DNA of 43,489 nucleotides from a virus: IMG/VR virus record IMGVR_UViG_3300030109_000449, positions 8,294 to 51,782 of that record. One strand, given 5' to 3'. Under the pieces are notes generated by a model. The model was given only the letters and a program-made list of their open reading frames with translations, was not told where the DNA came from and ran no database searches. Below are positions 772 to 43,400 of the stretch, piece after piece (position 1 is the first letter of the stretch; each line of letters begins with the position of its first letter). The position numbers were made by a program, and so were the translations under genes.

Positions 772-944
772 TGTTTAATGGACCTAACGGAGCTGGTAAA
801 GGCGATAAGCCTAGACAAGGCATACCTATGAAACAATGGGAAGAACGTTGGGAAAAGATATTTGGACATAAAGGTGTAAATAAAGATATTTTTAAGGAAG
901 AAAATGGCGAGAAAAAAAGCAAAAGCAATAAGAAAAACAACTAA
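771..944 (+). CDS. Small hypothetical protein, 57 aa
   Basis: It begins MFNGPNGAGKGDKPRQG and is glycine- and lysine-rich, with a W-rich middle (QWEERWEKIFGHKG) and a basic tail. I start it at 771, where the ATG overlaps the preceding stop as TAATG, the coupling arrangement used repeatedly in this genome; an in-frame ATG at 756 would overlap further. The GPNGAGKG stretch superficially recalls a P-loop, but the protein is far too short for an NTPase. Its 3' end overlaps the next gene by 41 bases. Function unknown. Confidence 0.6.
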   Translation: MFNGPNGAGKGDKPRQGIPMKQWEERWEKIFGHKGVNKDIFKEENGEKKSKSNKKNN

Positions 945-1206
945 GGGTAAAGGCGCTAATTACAGACCTACTAAAAAAGGTGCTGGTATGACCGCTAAAG
1001 GTGTTAAAGCTTATAGGAGAGCAAACCCTGGTAGTAAACTTAAGACCGCTGTTACTGGTAAAGTAAAGAAAGGTAGTAAAGCAGCTAAAAGAAGAAAGTC
1101 TTATTGCGCTAGGTCTTTAGGACAATTAAAACGAAGTTCTGCTAAAACTAGGAACAATCCTAATTCTAGAATAAGGCAGGCAAGAAGGAGATGGAAATGC
1201 AGATAA
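904..1206 (+). CDS. Very basic phage protein (DUF6321-like), 100 aa
   Basis: Extremely rich in Lys and Arg with no hydrophobic core. It contains the pattern AVTGKVKKGSKAAKRRKSYCAR followed by a lysine/arginine-rich tail ending RRRWKCR, which I recognise from the DUF6321 group of phage proteins. That family has no demonstrated function to my knowledge. Start supported by AAGGAAG just upstream of the ATG. The charge suggests nucleic-acid binding, perhaps packaged with DNA; this is inference. Neighbours are a small ORF (overlapping) and the holin. Confidence 0.75.
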   Translation: MARKKAKAIRKTTKGKGANYRPTKKGAGMTAKGVKAYRRANPGSKLKTAVTGKVKKGSKAAKRRKSYCARSLGQLKRSSAKTRNNPNSRIRQARRRWKCR

Positions 1207-1213
1207 TGTGTGA

Positions 1214-1600
1214 ATGTGGATGTGGAATATGCCTAAGCTAGATATAGTTGCAGGTATAATAGACAAGGTAGCTGGTCACGTAGACAAGTTTACTTTAGAC
1301 AAACAAGAAAAAGCTGAGTTAATAGCTGAGATAAACAAAGCTCAAATGGAAGTAAATAAAGTAGAAGCTGGGCATACGTCTATGTTTGTAGCGGGCTGGA
1401 GGCCCTTTACAGGCTGGATATGCGCTTCTGCTATGGCGTATCATTATATACTACAACCTTTACTTACTTTTATTTTGTATAGTTTTGGAAATGAAGTAGT
1501 ATTACCAACCTTTGATATGGGTACTCTTACTACAGTCTTACTCGGAATGCTCGGTCTCGGGGGAATGCGCAGTTTTGAAAAGGTAAAGAAGAGTGCCTAA
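1214..1600 (+). CDS. Holin, GTA-type 3-TM family
   Basis: Of 128 aa, the first ~55 residues form an amphipathic, charged helix (DKQEKAELIAEINKAQMEVN). Then come FVAGWRPFTGWICASAMAYHY and two more hydrophobic segments ending in GMLGLGGMRSFEKVKKS. The GWRPFTGW motif and the final GLGGxRSxEK are characteristic of the three-transmembrane holins first named from gene transfer agents. It should form inner-membrane holes for endolysin release; the endolysin gene lies 2.5 kb downstream. An ATG at 1229 (MPKLDIV) is an alternative and perhaps more natural start, as neither has a strong ribosome site. Its 3' end overlaps the next GTG start by 8 bases. Confidence 0.85.
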   Translation: MWMWNMPKLDIVAGIIDKVAGHVDKFTLDKQEKAELIAEINKAQMEVNKVEAGHTSMFVAGWRPFTGWICASAMAYHYILQPLLTFILYSFGNEVVLPTFDMGTLTTVLLGMLGLGGMRSFEKVKKSA

Positions 1601-7541: not shown

Positions 7542-10500
7542 TTGTCTAACGGCCCAACAAATCCACAGATAGATTTTTCAAATGCTCTATCATCCAGGAA
7601 ACAAACTGGTTTTGATGCATATCAAGGCAATCCTAATTTGATGTTAATACCTCAGCAGCCCGATTGGACTCCTGAAGAATATTCTGAAAAAGATTCTTAT
7701 TTTCAAGACCCTGAAAGATTAAAAAGAATTGAAAAATTAAAATCTCAAATTACAGAACTTCCTAGTAAAAAAGCATATGTAGAACCTACAGAAACAGAAT
7801 TAAAAAAAGACCTTGGTTATTGGAACAATGCGTTGAGGTGGTCAATAGGAGCTTATAATGGTCCAGGAGGTAATATGATGAAAGATGCATATAACAGAAG
7901 TATTCCTGGTATAGCAGAACAAATGATTTATGGAGAAACACCATTTTCATTACCTTTAAATGACCCTACTATGGTTTATAATCTTGGTGTAGCAATAGGA
8001 GGATTCTTAATGCCTTCAAGAGAAAATGTAGCTATAACTGCAGGTTCTTTAGGTCTTGGTAAAGTTGCAAAAGCAGGTATAAATGTTGGTGCAAAAAATT
8101 TAGGATTAAATTCTATAAATACTTACATAGCTAAACAGATGGTCAAAGGTAAAGTTATGCCTAAAAGGTCAACTAAGTCTTTTGTAAAAAACATGAATAG
8201 AATTACAGGTCAAGAAGGGATTACATTTGCTAACTTAGATATGCTTTATGGTTCAACATTAAACATGAGAGATGCTGTAATAGCAGGAGATTATGATTTA
8301 GACAAGTATGATGGTCTTAGTGAAATGCAAAGATACAATACGTTTGCAAAAGATTTAGCAATGTACGCAGACCCTAAAGATTTTTTAAAAGGATACGCTA
8401 TTGGTTTAGGTGGTGCTACAGGTTATGGTTTAAATAGATATACTAGAAAAGGTTTTTTCACGCCTGTATTGCCTAAGTCTTTTAAAGGAACAGCTGTTAC
8501 TAAAAAAGGAACAGAGTTTGGTATAGGTGGAGAAGTAGCTGGAGGAGTAGCTACAGCTGTTGCAGTAGAACCTGAATTACAAAAAGTTATAAGCGACGTA
8601 GAAAATGGAGACATAGGCGTAGGAGCTTTAATCATGGGAGCAGTTGCTGCTTCTTACATTCCAAGCAGTCTTAGAAGCGCTTACAGAACTGGAAAGTTTG
8701 CTCCAGGAGTAGACACAAGGTCTATGACTATGGAAGAATTTGTAAACGCTCAAAGTGAAGCAGTATCTTTAGCAGGTGGTAGAAAAAGAACAAAAGATAT
8801 ATATTCAAGAGTTCAAGACCCTTTAATTAAAGTAGAAAACACTTCAACAGATGTAACATCAAAACCTATCTTTGACGTAGACGCAGATGGTAATCAACAA
8901 CTAATAGGATATGATACAGAGCAGTCAGAAATGGCTATTAAAAGACTGAACTCAAGACAACTTCCTAAAGGAATGGCTACTGGACCATATATGAACACTA
9001 ATATTAAAGGTAAGATAGTAAGAGCAGACGGTAGTTTAGAACCTTCGCCACACGAAATACCAAAAGATTTAGATGTAAAAATAGACAGAAATACTTTTGA
9101 GGTTACTGAAAATGGTTATAAATTTCAAGCAAAAGCAGGTAGATTAAGATATGAATTAGATGAAGATAATGCTGAATTATTTTTTAAGTTCTATACATCT
9201 CAACCTCAATTAAGAAAAAGATTTGAAGCAAACAATAAGGGAGTATTTAATCAGAAGTTTGCATTAACTAGAATAAGAAGAAAAACATTAGAAGGATTAA
9301 AAAAAGATTCTTACGAAGGAAAAAATGGATTAAAGAAAGGCGACTACGATAGAGCTATTACGGCAGTAGGAGCAGAGTTAGACCTTAAAAAATTTCAAAA
9401 CCCAGATAAATTACCTGACATAAATGGTATGAGCGACATTGAAATGAGGCTTGTTACAGAACAATTTAATGATTTGCAATTATTAAGAAATCACGAAGAA
9501 TACATAAAGAGAGAATTTTTTGGAGAACTTGAAAATATATCTGGGGTAACAGGAGAATCTATAATGGAAAATCTTGCTAGGTCTATGTTTGCTGGATTTC
9601 AATCTTCATTACAAAGTCCTGCAGCAAAAACTGTTACAAGAATGATAGCTAGTTTAGATAGAAAAATTGTTAGAACTACTACGGACAGAATTGTAAGTAT
9701 GCAACAAGCTTTAGGTATGGATACTTCTGTTATAAGTTTAAGAAAAGCTGTTCTGCCTGTATCTAGAGTGTTTGGATACAATCCTTTTCAAAGCAGAAGG
9801 ACAGAAGAATGGTTGGTAGGAAGATTTGACGATGTTACTCTTCAAAACGGAACAAAGATACCTAATGCTTGGAGAACTTATCAAAAGTTACAAGGTGGAG
9901 AAGCAATTGGTAAAGACTATATGGCAGAAATGGTCAGAGAAACAGACAAGCTTATAAAAAGAGCAGACAAAAAAGGTGGACTAAAGTTTGGACTAACTCC
10001 TAATGAAAGATTCTTTTTAAAAAATAGAATAAAGATTATTAAAAATTTAAAAAGAGTAAATGACCCAATATACGAGGACGCTCTTGGTACAAAAATGAAG
10101 TTAGCTGGAAGACAAAAATGGTATTTGCCAAGCGTTATTAAAAAACCAATAAGAGATGCTATTTATTCTAATATGTTAAATATGTCTCAAAAAATGAAAG
10201 TTATTATGAGAGAGATGGATAACTTAAGCTTAGACTCTGATGTGGCTTTGAGGAATTTAGACCCAGAAAAAAAAGCAGAATTATCAGAGTACATGGAAGA
10301 ATATGTAGAAAAGTTAGCTAACTCTAAGACTGAGTCAGAAAGAGCTTTTGCGGACATTTGGGGAATGACAAAACAAGAACTAGAAGCTAACCCTGCAACT
10401 CTTTCGGACGTTCCAGACTATGATGTGTGGGCTAATATAAATGCTCAAATATATAATGACGGATTTAAAACATATGCTCCTTTGCAAAAAAGTAAAAAGC

Positions 10501-20371: not shown

Positions 20372-20490
20372 CAATTTTGTTTATATACATTTTTACTCCA
20401 CAAGTTATAAAAAATAATCTACAATTCCAAGAACTATATTGTCTTGCATCGAGCTTTTTGTCGAGCTTTTCTAAAAATTTCATAGTTAAA

Positions 20491-20547: not shown

Positions 20548-22320
20548 TTACAACGTATAACTACGTAGCAATTCATAGTCTACACGTTGTTTTTGGTTGT
20601 ACATTGGTCTAAAATTATCATATCTGTCGTCGTTCACAAGTAGGAACGAATCATTAAATATGTCTTTATACTCAAATGACAACTTATCTTTGTCAAACTC
20701 TACAATTGTATCTATAGGATGAAATACGTCGTTGTAAAAGTCTGTCGCTACGTGTTCTGACATAGTATTACTCAACTGCTCTTTTCTACGTTTAAAGTAG
20801 TTTCTCGTTGAGTAGTCTATTTCAAACAACTCGTAGATATTATCTAATGACATTACACACCTATTTGCTCTATGTCTAAGATAATAGACCATAGGCTGTA
20901 ATAGGTACGGCTTGTCTTTCTTTGGTAAACCGAGGTATCGTCGCAATGCTTCAGACTTTTTCCTATACTCAAACACATCGGAAAAGTCTCCAAGGTCGTC
21001 TCTATTTTCCCACTTGTTTGTTAGTTGCGACAACTTAGTATTTACAGTTGGACTTACATATAAAGACTTAAACATATTAGTGTCTCCAAAATTTGAATAA
21101 CTAACCATATTGTCTTTGACGTCTTCAGCAATTTCGTAAGACTTGTCCACTACTTGTGTCCAAAACTTAGTCCAATGCTTTATTTTGTCTATCTGTAAAG
21201 TGCCTGAGTGATAACGTATTTCCAGACCTTGATTGGCTTGGAAATGACTATGCCAATTCAGTCCATGATATCTTTTGTCGTTATACTTTTCGTCTGAATA
21301 ACCACCATTGTCGTAGTAAAACTCTACAAAAGAGTCTCTATCGCTAATGTATTTGAAATCATTGACTGCTTGTGAGACTGGTCTACTCCAACGTTGTCCA
21401 CCACTACCATTGTGTCTAGACTTTGGCAACCACGTGTAAATATGTGGCTCCATTAGTTTAGTAAATAGTGTTAAGACAGAAGCGTGAACCCAGTCGTGGT
21501 CTGCAACATCTATATGTAGATGCAATCCAGTCTTCCAAGAGGCATATGCTTCCCAGTTTTTTTCTAGACGTTTACACATATGATGAGTATCCTTAAGCAA
21601 GATGTCTCCACGTCGTGGTCGCATTACAAGTTCGCCACCATATTGATGTCTTTCACTTGTGACGCTTCCATCGTGAACAAAGTTAGACTGACCAAGAACG
21701 TGGTAATTGTCTTCGTTGTCTGAATCCCTTGTTTTTCCTAAGGTATAGTTTAAATCATCTTGGACTTCATAGTGCGATTGGTCGTATCTAAAATTAGTCT
21801 CTAATTCTAAACCGACGTACCTTTTAGACTTTATCAAATAAAAAGTATCATTTGAGTAAAAATGTCTTTCAGGGTGTACGAAGTCAGTTCTGTTCTTTAC
21901 GTAATCATTACTATAGACTTCCCAATCAGGTTGTCTATTATATTCTTCTTGTTCGTAACAACTATCACAAAGATAATCACCATACCTGTCTGACCACTGC
22001 GCATCGTCTCGCCACATCTCGTAATCACACTCAGGACAACACATGACAGCGTCTTCATGGCAACCGTCGCAGAAATATTGTCCTTCAAACTCACGGGCTT
22101 CGTCTATGTGAACGTTTTGTCCACACTCACAAGATACATAATCCTCAGCGCACGTCTCACAGATTGCGTCGTCCATATCATTTGTGTATTCATCTTGTTC
22201 ACTGTCAATTTGTTCACTACAGTCTGCACAAGCACAAGGTGTTTCCAACTCCTCGTTGAGACGTTCTATTGCTTCCTCAGCTCTTCTGATAGCGTCAGGT
22301 GGCATTATATTCCTCTTCAT
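20548..22320 (-). CDS. Amidoligase (glutamine-synthetase fold) with N-terminal zinc ribbons
   Basis: A 590-aa protein. Residues ~28-125 contain paired Cys clusters (31/34 with 54/57; 64/66 with 84/87; 95/98 with 118/121), three probable zinc ribbons. The catalytic part begins near 165: GLELETNF (170-177, Glu172/174), HDGSV (216-220), GGELVMRP with Glu230, GLHLHID with His267/269, and GLEIRYHSG with Glu367/Arg369. This is the ordered motif set of GS-fold 'COOH-NH2 ligases', which use ATP to form amide bonds. About 190 residues after residue 400 match nothing I know. It overlaps the class II amidotransferase upstream by 26 bases, implying ammonia transfer between the two. ATG 22305 has the better ribosome site (AGAGGA) and may be the true start. 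Substrate unknown. Confidence 0.85.
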   Translation of the reverse strand: MKRNIMPPDAIRRAEEAIERLNEELETPCACADCSEQIDSEQDEYTNDMDDAICETCAEDYVSCECGQNVHIDEAREFEGQYFCDGCHEDAVMCCPECDYEMWRDDAQWSDRYGDYLCDSCYEQEEYNRQPDWEVYSNDYVKNRTDFVHPERHFYSNDTFYLIKSKRYVGLELETNFRYDQSHYEVQDDLNYTLGKTRDSDNEDNYHVLGQSNFVHDGSVTSERHQYGGELVMRPRRGDILLKDTHHMCKRLEKNWEAYASWKTGLHLHIDVADHDWVHASVLTLFTKLMEPHIYTWLPKSRHNGSGGQRWSRPVSQAVNDFKYISDRDSFVEFYYDNGGYSDEKYNDKRYHGLNWHSHFQANQGLEIRYHSGTLQIDKIKHWTKFWTQVVDKSYEIAEDVKDNMVSYSNFGDTNMFKSLYVSPTVNTKLSQLTNKWENRDDLGDFSDVFEYRKKSEALRRYLGLPKKDKPYLLQPMVYYLRHRANRCVMSLDNIYELFEIDYSTRNYFKRRKEQLSNTMSEHVATDFYNDVFHPIDTIVEFDKDKLSFEYKDIFNDSFLLVNDDRYDNFRPMYNQKQRVDYELLRSYTL

Positions 22321-23350
22321 CTACCCAGACACTACTTCCATACTTGTCTGCAAACATTTGTTCTTCACTAAATATTTGTCCCGTATCTGGGTGGGCATAG
22401 TACCAAGTATCGTCGTGTTCGTCAAAGAACCAAGAATTAGGACTTGTCTGAAATATATCAGCCAATTCTACAACCTCGTCATTTAACCATTGTTTGCTCC
22501 AATCATCGTCTTGGACTAAACCTAGTTCTAGACTTTTTTGATAGTCGTCTATTTGACGTTGTGATTTAAAGTGTCCATAACCTCTATTATAGTTATTAAT
22601 AGACCATTGATAGACTCTTGATTCATACTTGAACAATGTCTTTTCTACATTAGTTTTTAAATCGTCAAACTTTGACGCGTCAAAAGCATATAATGTATTC
22701 TTATTAAGACTATAAACAGTTGCGTCTATGTTATACTTAAGAAGCGCGTCATCAATAAATGACGACTCGCTTGCATAGAACAATGTTTTAAGTTCAGGAA
22801 TGTATGCGACATGTAAAGGACGATTCGTCTCTCTACATAGATACAATACCATTGGGTTTTTCTTAACGAACGATAACGCAAAGTCGCTGTCAAAATCTTT
22901 GACTGCTTCTTGTATACTATCATTGTCGTTTATTGATTTAAAGATAAGCTGTGAGTCTACAGGACATTGTTTGTCCAATTTACTCTGCATTTCTTTAATG
23001 TTGTAAACGCAACCATTATGAGCACCGACGACATCGCCGACTCTAAAAGGGTGTGCGTTTGATTTGACTATTGCTCCATCTGTTGCAAAGCGTGTATGTC
23101 CAAGCAATATATACGATTCGTCAAATAATGACTTGACTGCATTGTTATATTCTTTGGTGTCTACAAACTTCTCAGACGGCAATAGTGATTTATATATTCT
23201 AGTGCTAGCTCCGACTTTAGCAATACCAGACGAGTGAGAACCACGAGTCTGACTATCTACTGCTATTTCACGCAACACCTGTCTGACAATTTTATGTTGT
23301 CTTCTAGTGTAGGGCGTCGGAGACTTTGCTATTCCATATATACCACACAT
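22295..23350 (-). CDS. Class II glutamine amidotransferase
   Basis: A 351-aa protein starting MCGIYGIAKS: Cys2 becomes the N-terminal nucleophile after Met removal. RGSHSSG (36-42), GHTRFAT (84-90, Arg87), GAHNG (109-113, oxyanion-hole Asn112) and VDSQ (131-134, Asp132) complete the N-terminal-nucleophile (PurF/GlmS/AsnB-type) site. It hydrolyses glutamine to ammonia. There is no SIS, PRTase or synthetase domain; after ~230 residues comes a ~120-residue tail rich in Trp, Tyr and acid, so ammonia must go to a partner, most simply the overlapping amidoligase. Start has AAAGGAG eight bases before. Confidence 0.9.
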   Translation of the reverse strand: MCGIYGIAKSPTPYTRRQHKIVRQVLREIAVDSQTRGSHSSGIAKVGASTRIYKSLLPSEKFVDTKEYNNAVKSLFDESYILLGHTRFATDGAIVKSNAHPFRVGDVVGAHNGCVYNIKEMQSKLDKQCPVDSQLIFKSINDNDSIQEAVKDFDSDFALSFVKKNPMVLYLCRETNRPLHVAYIPELKTLFYASESSFIDDALLKYNIDATVYSLNKNTLYAFDASKFDDLKTNVEKTLFKYESRVYQWSINNYNRGYGHFKSQRQIDDYQKSLELGLVQDDDWSKQWLNDEVVELADIFQTSPNSWFFDEHDDTWYYAHPDTGQIFSEEQMFADKYGSSVWVDEEEYNAT

Positions 23351-28746: not shown

Positions 28747-28912
28747 ACGTTGTCACATATGCCACCACAGATTAAGTAAAACTGCTGTATTTTTATATAG
28801 TAAAGAAAAAAGAGACACAACTCACATAAAGTGTTTTAATTGTTTAACAGTTTATAACACATCTTTTGGAATTACAGACATAGGAATACCAGAAAAAATA
28901 GGTTACTCATGA
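28685..28912 (+). CDS. Zinc-finger protein in the terminase cluster, 75 aa
   Basis: Overlaps the terminase small gene by 62 bases in another frame, with GGAG upstream of its ATG. CHICHH (near residue 23) and CFNC (near 50) form a four-Cys metal site in a basic protein. The stop overlaps the next ATG as ATGA. Function unknown; DNA binding is plausible. Confidence 0.55.
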   Translation: MQFKGPNTKNWRKLKKITKNKRCHICHHRLSKTAVFLYSKEKRDTTHIKCFNCLTVYNTSFGITDIGIPEKIGYS

Positions 28913-29316
28913 GACTAGCAGTATACGGAACATTAAGAAACGGATTTGAAGAAACAGGTAAAATAGAAGGTTTTAGTCTTGTATTTCCTGGAACTAAGTC
29001 TTTTCCAGCGTTAATAAAGAATGAAAAAGGAAAAGGAGCAGTAGTAGAAGTTATTAAAGTAACTGAAGAAGATTTAAATATATACGATAAATACGAATCT
29101 ACAAAAGACGGTTTATATATAAGAACAACAGCTAATATTATTCTTGACAAAACAGACAAAAAAGAAAAATGTTGGGTATATGTAGCTGGTCCTTTATTAT
29201 GGCAAAGCTCTAGTATGTTTACAGAAGTACCAGATGGTGATTGGTTTTCACCTAAAACAATGACAATGATGGATAGAGTTTATGAAAAAGAATACGAAGA
29301 AGCCAGAAAATTTTAA
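28909..29316 (+). CDS. Gamma-glutamylcyclotransferase-like (AIG2/GGCT family), 135 aa
   Basis: MRLAVYGTLRNG gives the glycine/backbone loop YGTLR (6-10) that opens this fold. IYDKYESTKDGLYIR places the catalytic Glu at residue 63 in the usual Y-E-x-x-x-x-x-Y context, and the remaining strands fit the compact 'butirosin-type' barrel. Such enzymes release 5-oxoproline from gamma-glutamyl compounds or transfer glutamyl-like groups. It is coupled to the zinc-finger gene by ATGA and overlaps terL by 35 bases, an unusual place. Family members have been linked to amidoligase and class II amidotransferase genes, both in this window (20548-23350) on the other strand. Confidence 0.85.
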   Translation: MRLAVYGTLRNGFEETGKIEGFSLVFPGTKSFPALIKNEKGKGAVVEVIKVTEEDLNIYDKYESTKDGLYIRTTANIILDKTDKKEKCWVYVAGPLLWQSSSMFTEVPDGDWFSPKTMTMMDRVYEKEYEEARKF

Positions 29317-40426: not shown

Positions 40427-43400
40427 ATGGCAACACTAACAGGACAAAGAATAAAAGATAGTTATAAAGATTTATTACAAGTCTCTAATAGCAATTCTGG
40501 AATTACAGCAACTTTAACTGCGGTGCAAGATGGAGAAGGTAATTCAAGTAAATTAGAGCTTAGCACTAATTATGTTAATGTAAATACAGCAGGAGCTTTA
40601 TATTATGCTGGTACTGCTATTACTTCTACAGCTGCTGAACTGAATATATTAGACGGAGCTACAATTACAGTAGCAGAACTTAACATACTAGATGGTGTTA
40701 CTTCTACAGCAACAGAAATAAATCTATTAGATGGAGTTACGGCAACTACTTCAGAATTAAATATTTTAGATGGTGTAACAGCCACAGCCTCTGAACTAAA
40801 TATCTTAGATGGTGTGACAGCAACTGCTTCTGAATTGAATATAATGGATGGAGTGACTGCTACTACAGCAGAATTAAATTATGTAGATGGAGTAACTTCT
40901 AATATTCAAACACAATTAGATTCAAAAATAAGTGCTACACTAACACAAGAACAGGTAGAAGATTTTGTTGGAGGTATGTTAGATGGTACAGAAACAGGTA
41001 TTTCTGTTAGCTATGACGACACAGATGGTAATATAGATTTTGTTGTAGCTACACAATCAGACAACAACTTTACAACCACACTTTTAAATAAATTAAATGC
41101 AATAGAAGCAAGTGCAGATGTAACAGATACTGCCAATGTAACAAGTGCTGGTGCGTTAATGGATAGCGAACTAACAAGTATCGCAGATGTAAAAGCGTTA
41201 GACCAGTCAGTAATAAGTGGAGCTTCTCCAACATTTGGCACAGCAAATATGTCTGATGCTTCTAATAAAAGATTTATGACTGATGCTCAAGAAACTAAAC
41301 TTGACTCAGTTGAAAGTAATGCGACTGCCGACCAAACCGATGAAGAAATACAAGATGTCGTAGGAGCAATGTTTGATAGTAATACCGAAACTGGAATTAC
41401 TGCTACCTATCAAGATGCTGATGGAACAATAGATTTAGTTGTTGGTACACTTAACCAGGATACAACTGGGAATGCAGCTACTGCAACTAAGATTGCATCT
41501 ATTACTAATAGTGATATTGTACAACTAACAGATACACAAACACTTTCTAACAAAACTTTAGCAAGTCCTACTTTTACTGGAGATGTAACATTTAATGATG
41601 CTTCAACTCCACAATTAAACATAACAGATACTACAAATACTGTAAGTGCAAGAGTTGCTGCATCAGATACTACTGTTACTTTTGGCTCAACAACAGACAA
41701 CAATGTTAATATTGTTAGAAATGATGTAGGGCATTTTACTTTATATAGTAATTACACAATGCACAATAACGGTGGTAATGATGTAGATTTTAGAGTAAAA
41801 GATAGTAGTGGTAATGTAATATTTAAAGTAGATGCTGCAAATTCAGATGTAGATATAACAAATTTAGATGTATCTGGAGATGCAGACATTGATGGAACAT
41901 TAGAAGCAGATGCTATTACGGTTGGAGGAACTGCTTTAAACACAGTTATTGCAGGAGTTACAGTAGCAAATGCAACATTAGCTGCAACTGCAACAGTATC
42001 AGATAGCACAGCAAACACAAACTTTCCAGTTGTATTTCACGATGAGTCAAATGCTTTATTAGATGACACAGGTGCATTAAGATATAATCCAAGTACAGGA
42101 ACATTGTTAGTTCCTAATCTTTCTGTTGCTGGTACTACAACAACTGTAGATACAGTTACAATGGAAGCATCAAATGCTATTATCTTTGAAGGAGCAACTG
42201 CAGACGCACACGAAACTACATTATCTATTGTAGACCCTACTGGAGATAGAACAATTAATTTACCAAATGTATCAGGTACTATACCAGTATTAGCAGCAGC
42301 TTCTACTACACAAATTTCATCTACCCCAGAAGAATTAAATATATTAGATGGTAAAGCTTTCTTAGATGAAGATAATTTTTCTTCTAACAGTGCAACAGGT
42401 ATTGCTTCTCAACAATCTATTAAAGCTTACGTAGATGCAGAAGTTACATCAGCTGGAGCTGGAGACATTACTACAGTAACTGCTGGAGATGGTTTAACTG
42501 GAGGTGCAACAAGTGGAGCAGCTACTTTAAACATTGGAGCAGGCACTGGTATTGATGTAGCAGCAGATGCTATTTCAGTAGATGTATCAGACTTTATGTC
42601 TAATGGAGCAGACAACAGAGTATTAACTGCTACTGGTACAGATGCTATGAACGCAGAAGCTAACCTTACTTTTAGTCCAAGCAATAATTATCTTACTGTT
42701 CACGAAGATGGAGCAAGTACTGGCTCACATCTAAGACTTGCAACAGACAATTCAGATTTTATTTTTACTGCAAGTGGAGCATCAAATCAATTAAGTATTT
42801 ATGATGTAAATGCGACTGCTAATAGTTTAGTAATGGATAGTGCTGGTAAAATTACACTTAGAGATAGTCTTAAAATACCAGCAGCTAAAAGCGTATTTTT
42901 TGGAGCAAGTGAACATACATTTATTAGGGAAGTAAGTGATGATAACTTAACTATTGCAGTTGGTGGAACTAACTTACTTGAATTAGTTGAAGATAGTACA
43001 GACTATGTAAGAGTGTTAGATAATACATTATTAGGTGTTGGTAGTTCTAATGATATGAACTTGAAACACGATGGTACTAACTCATTTATAACTAATGGTA
43101 CTGGTGCATTATATATTGATGCACTTGCACAAGATGAAGACTTTTTTATTAGAGTAAACGATGGTGGTTCTACGATTACTGCAATGAAAATAGATGCAAG
43201 TGAAGTTGCAAGAGTACAATTCCAAAATGATAACCAAGTAGTAGCGATAGGAGCATCTGACGATTTACAATTCTATCACGATGGTTCTAGCAACTACATA
43301 AATAATAATACATCAGACCAAGACTTATTTATTAGAGTAAATGATGGTGGAAGTCATATTAACGCAATTCAAATAGATGCAAGTGCAGAAGGTAGAGTAA

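Follow-up and report, generated by a model that had tools for sequence, protein, structure and literature searches.

The locus and its genes

The analysed stretch (hereafter the window) covers 43,489 nucleotides of a 51,782-base IMG/VR viral record (IMGVR_UViG_3300030109_000449, positions 8,294 to 51,782), whose source is an uncultured, marine-type phage. On its minus strand, two overlapping genes encode a stand-alone class II (Ntn) glutamine amidotransferase of 351 amino acids (aa) (22295-23350) and a predicted GS-fold amidoligase with an N-terminal zinc region (20548-22320, open reading frame [ORF] of 590 aa), both lying where the original prediction had placed them. A third gene of interest, on the plus strand (28909-29316), encodes a 135-aa gamma-glutamyl cyclotransferase of the GGACT/AIG2 family. 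According to a Pfam/PHROGs scan of the ORFs, the pair sits on the strand of the replication genes, beside helicase and exonuclease genes, a location that might suggest that DNA bases or nucleotides are hypermodified through amide formation. This reading is highly improbable, and was rejected because the same scan of ORFs revealed no thymidylate-synthase-like, hydroxymethylase or other base-modification gene.

A class II amidotransferase lacking a synthetase domain

The amidotransferase starts with MCGIYG, which places Cys2 at the position of the N-terminal nucleophile, and harbors the glutamine-pocket residues Arg87, Asn112-Gly113 and Asp132. Pfam assigns it to GATase_6 (PF13522, E=1.8e-13) and detects the glutaminase domain alone, with no synthetase domain in the 351 aa, which confirms the residues and the domain content initially proposed. 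Cys2 is present in the 68 distinct relatives that have this position (the 69th being truncated), and R87, N112, G113 and D132 are invariant in 69/69 distinct relatives. The product can thus be named a class II glutamine amidotransferase, with a predicted activity as glutaminase.

The AlphaFold model of the protein (mean pLDDT 78.5) finds its best Foldseek match in the glutaminase domain of GlmS (E=2.8e-12), followed by PurF, asparagine synthetase and EgtC, with E about 1e-8 for the EgtC structures. This last match makes gamma-glutamyl hydrolysis possible for the modelled fold, and introduces the main rival to an amide ligase fed with ammonia: the GS-fold ligase would join the gamma-carboxyl of glutamate to an amine (as YbdK/GCS2-like enzymes or EgtA), the Ntn enzyme would be an EgtC-like amidase instead of an ammonia donor, and the cyclotransferase would act as a second, late remover. 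We consider such ligation and removal somewhat unlikely. Profile comparisons favor the glutaminase reading, with GlmS (E=9e-15) ahead of EgtC (E=4e-5) by about nine orders of magnitude, although the GlmS profile is the longer of the two. The NCBIfam equivalog model for EgtC (TIGR03442) gives 23.2 bits, under its cut-off of 218.65. A mode of action through ammonia is thus plausible, the glutaminase domain being closest to GlmS, yet with a modelled structure that also matches EgtC.

The C-terminal part of the protein contains a W-x8-W(Y/F) module (about residues 303-330; 22361-22444, minus strand), in which the AlphaFold model predicts three strands, and whose W307 and W316 are invariant across 30 relatives. 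No convincing Pfam family was found for it, and by motif it is recognised in the clade with a single ligase only, being absent from the clade with two ligases. A match to ZapC (E=0.025), obtained in the Pfam search of this module and of the ligase zinc region, was dismissed as weak.

A predicted GS-fold amidoligase fused to a LIM-like zinc region

The next gene was expected to encode a GS-fold amidoligase, and Amidoligase_2 (PF12224) indeed covers residues 166-389 of its product (21154-21825, minus strand) with E=5.3e-18 and 66.2 bits, against a curated cut-off of 22. In this catalytic core, E172, E174, D217, E230, H267, H269, R350, E367, R369 and H371 are invariant in 69/69 distinct relatives. 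The best solved fold for the AlphaFold model (mean pLDDT 80.8) is the carboxylate-amine ligase YbdK (E=5.4e-4), followed by glutamine synthetases, with a single Foldseek match to solved structures under E=0.001 and low whole-protein TM-scores (0.27), because the model is multidomain; the fold assignment therefore rests mainly on Pfam and on the motifs. In a viral structure library, the model matches other phage amidoligases, one of them named LIM domain containing protein. YbdK as the nearest solved neighbour is what gamma-glutamyl ligation would lead one to expect: YbdK/EgtA (GCS2-like) ligases and EgtC combine a GS-fold carboxylate-amine ligase with an Ntn enzyme acting on gamma-glutamyl groups, and the models of the window pair match their folds, with low TM-scores in the case of the ligase. 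To our knowledge, these enzymes carry no zinc region.

The zinc region of the phage ligase (residues 31-121; 21958-22230, minus strand) contains twelve cysteines arranged in pairs, seven of which are invariant in 69/69 relatives and the other five present in 66-67 of 69. It has no Pfam name, and appears LIM-like, since the ligase family profile matches LIM domains of the PDB (best E=0.0023). Together with the C-terminus it is the fastest-changing part of the protein: compared with the window ligase, relatives show 23-63% identity over the zinc region, 14-75% over the C-terminus and 49-83% over the catalytic core.

A LIM-like region found on the ligase of nearly all relatives, and evolving faster than the core, is what would be expected of a partner-recognition module, and the pair could then amidate or tag a protein, of the host or of the virion, that this module recognises. 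Phage ATP-grasp R2K peptide ligases have been predicted to modify proteins (PMC7824862). Zinc regions can equally be structural, however, and no ATP-grasp tagging enzyme accompanies the pair: neither PF08443 nor PF18299 has a match in the window's own record, which may be a fragment, and PF18299 is absent from 17 related records (possibly fragments too), while both control phages match. Modification of a protein is regarded as unlikely.

Translational coupling and termination

The mechanical ORFs of the two genes overlap by 26 bases, as originally described. The ligases of close relatives all begin with MPP/MN..., corresponding to Met6 of the window ORF (base 22305), and a Shine-Dalgarno-like AAGAGG (22317-22312) stands six bases ahead of the Met6 ATG; the true overlap is therefore probably 11 bases (22295-22305, minus strand), and the ligase probably starts at this conserved Met6, with a length of 585 aa. 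The overlapping starts and their Shine-Dalgarno-like sequences have been kept among relatives. Such close coupling of translation fits a stoichiometric complex better than two opposed enzymes, which speaks against the ligation and removal of gamma-glutamyl groups.

Past the ligase gene, a 12-pair stem followed by a T run (20535-20506, minus strand; fold z-score of -7.2 against shuffles) forms an intrinsic terminator. Hairpins occur at the same place in all seven other relatives folded, with a stem sequence that differs in several of them, and the terminator attributed to the pair is thus real. Just past it (20428-20480), the window contains repeated AAAGCTCGA motifs, which are also found downstream of the ligase gene in three relatives (L015, L016 and L019), and GCTAGA repeats occupy the matching place in other relatives. 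These repeats possibly have a regulatory role.

Conservation and distribution of the pair

Active-site residues have not been lost in close relatives: a check for such losses found none among the 69 distinct relatives of either protein. Between close relatives, dN/dS of the pair is about 0.08-0.43, and this selection, together with the residues kept in the 69 relatives of each protein, excludes chance. Adjacency is nearly as strict: of the 79 distinct ligase ORFs, 78 have an amidotransferase no more than 500 bases away and on their own strand, the lone exception being the split-off tail of a frameshifted ligase whose main part adjoins an amidotransferase. In one contig (L026:10610-12350), a frameshift splits the ligase gene into two overlapping ORFs, reflecting either a sequencing error or a pseudogene. 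Among 80 loci anchored on TerL, both genes are present in all 28 whose upstream DNA exceeds 7.4 kb, three further loci stop partway but include the beginning of the amidotransferase, and no locus long enough to show the pair lacks it. The pair is thus core to this phage lineage.

The original prediction of a two-subunit ammonia-dependent enzyme holds in its first part, a coupled two-gene enzyme being strongly supported by the invariant active sites, the universal adjacency and the translational overlap, while the ammonia route stays at the level of the plausible. The zinc region, the cyclotransferase at 28909-29316 and the core status of the pair go beyond that prediction.

Outside the close relatives, the order of the two genes may vary. 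The ligase comes first in two loci (L211 and L212) and in a contig of an Elusimicrobia MAG. Even there the genes remain neighbours or lie 411 bases from each other, and their linkage has thus been kept through rearrangement. The Elusimicrobia contig (L216:9716-12487) encodes a very cysteine-rich amidoligase, with the class II amidotransferase 411 bases further on. In a distant phage clade (L199, L203, L206-L210, L213-L215), two Amidoligase_2 genes flank the amidotransferase, and a gene of about 100 aa precedes the second.

With the ligase as query, tblastn found no match in 50,697 phage records, and only distant family members reach cultured phages; a related amidotransferase occurs in 329 records of the phage collection. 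On the cellular side, a pattern-based scan of 84,980 genomes with the ligase profile, of limited sensitivity, retrieved one distant relative only, that of the Elusimicrobia MAG. This distribution bears on a role in auxiliary nitrogen metabolism, as proposed for genes of the same families in phage ZRK32 (PMC10945688), where the enzymes would pass on the nitrogen of glutamine or produce small amides to supply the phage with nucleotides and amino acids. A single distant cellular relative in that scan argues against this role. So does the ligase itself, since a core, fast-diverging and zinc-fused gene carried by all genomes of the lineage does not resemble the usual metabolic gene derived from a host; we hold this role to be improbable.

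A gamma-glutamyl cyclotransferase in the terminase operon

The cyclotransferase (PF06094, E=3.4e-14), whose Glu63 is invariant in the alignment, is encoded between the terminase small and large subunit genes and overlaps the latter by 35 bases. It occupies this position in 80/80 TerL-anchored loci, and of 17 related records scanned over their full length, 16 contain the GGACT family. The terminase operon is an unusual place for a metabolic-type enzyme such as this one. From the co-occurrence of the cyclotransferase with the pair, both here and in other phages, we infer a functional link between them. Its presence speaks for chemistry on gamma-glutamyl groups and not for plain amidation, and its occurrence in all 80 loci counts in favor of gamma-glutamyl ligation and removal.

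Relation to known phage cassettes

Cassettes with an amidotransferase and an amidoligase are common in phages, and the role ascribed to them in the literature is a predicted one. In LUZ24-like phages, a class II amidotransferase and an amidoligase occur with an ATP-grasp protein, a COOH-NH2 ligase and a gamma-glutamyl cyclotransferase (PMC3890496). The same gene set in RIO-1-like, phiEco32, PaP3, tf and CW02 phages has been proposed to be a peptidoglycan modification cassette (PMC5498523), a proposal for which PMC5498523 and PMC10580990 cite Iyer 2009. Pseudomonas phage U17 carries the cassette as well (PMC11945000). The original statement that the product of such pairs in phages was unknown overlooked this published hypothesis of peptidoglycan modification (PMC5498523, PMC10580990, PMC11945000).

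Three cassette-bearing phages were checked directly for these genes. The window resembles the cassette of PaP3/LUZ24, tf, UFV-P2, phiEco32, RIO-1, PSA-HP1 and CW02, in which the amidotransferase adjoins Amidoligase_2 and the genome contains GGACT (PMC3890496, PMC5498523). It differs from it in having no detectable ATP-grasp protein or PF14395 ligase, in the zinc region that its ligase carries, and in the location of the cyclotransferase in the terminase operon. For the PF14395 family (the second COOH-NH2 ligase), Pfam gave no match in the scanned ORFs of the window and phmmer none in the related loci, whereas the three cassette-bearing control phages match. The system would work like the cassette, yet lacks two of its defining features, and is therefore filed, on its predicted domains, as a reduced and zinc-fused variant of a published cassette whose cell-wall role is predicted. 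It is a variant of that prediction and not a new kind of system, the new elements being the reduced set and the zinc fusion.

In marine phages, a parallel by Pfam family is the pair of the OM43 phages MEP401 and MEP402 and of over 30 metagenomic genomes (PF13522 and PF12224, as here; PMC10580990). These belong to a different phage group, and the parts of the description available to us mention neither a zinc region nor a link to a cyclotransferase (PMC10580990). What the window lineage offers is a reduced version that every member tested has kept, made up of a single glutaminase, a single ligase with its zinc fusion and a single cyclotransferase, and therefore a simpler system in which to find the substrate.

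Proposed mode of action

How would the pair act, and on what? A class II glutaminase domain feeding an ATP-dependent amidation is known from LtsA/AsnB, which amidate diaminopimelate. In these enzymes, the glutaminase and an AMP-forming synthetase domain are fused, in contrast to the separate GS-fold protein of the window. The reading we prefer, with a probability of roughly one in two, is that the two proteins are the subunits of one amide ligase, dependent on glutamine and directed at an envelope peptide, with the cyclotransferase working later in the same pathway. The Ntn subunit would split glutamine via Cys2 and hand ammonia to the GS-fold subunit, presumably by channelling within a complex of the two, and the GS-fold subunit would use ATP to activate a carboxylate and then form the amide. 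Amide-ligase chemistry is well supported by the anatomy of the two predicted proteins. The substrate may be recognised by the zinc region of the ligase and its variable C-terminus, and the likeliest candidate is a carboxylate of some peptide in the host envelope, for example the Glu or diaminopimelate carboxyl of a peptidoglycan stem or precursor. The cell-wall role predicted for relatives (PMC5498523, PMC10580990) speaks for such a target, while the window itself shows no direct tie of the pair to peptidoglycan. An altered wall might exclude other phages or control lysis, and the terminase-linked cyclotransferase would act later in infection on gamma-glutamyl amides of the same pathway. If true, modification of the wall or of a protein would explain superinfection control or lysis control by such phages.

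In a quite unlikely variant of this scheme, a widespread phage lineage would use its GS-fold ligase, fed by glutamine and guided by the LIM-like zinc finger, to add a new amide early in infection to one specific polymer or protein of the host envelope, and the cyclotransferase of the terminase operon would undo or process this mark late. Such marking would represent, if true, a reversible phage-encoded modification that is so far undescribed.

Other observations in the window

Two further features were recorded outside the loci discussed above. A stretch of 61 bases (41863-41923) shares 93% identity with the gene for the tail fibre in Pelagibacter phage HTVC033P, which gives a weak hint at a SAR11-type host. 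At the other end of the window, a DUF6321 gene adjoins a gene for a GTA-type three-TM holin (904-1600, plus strand).
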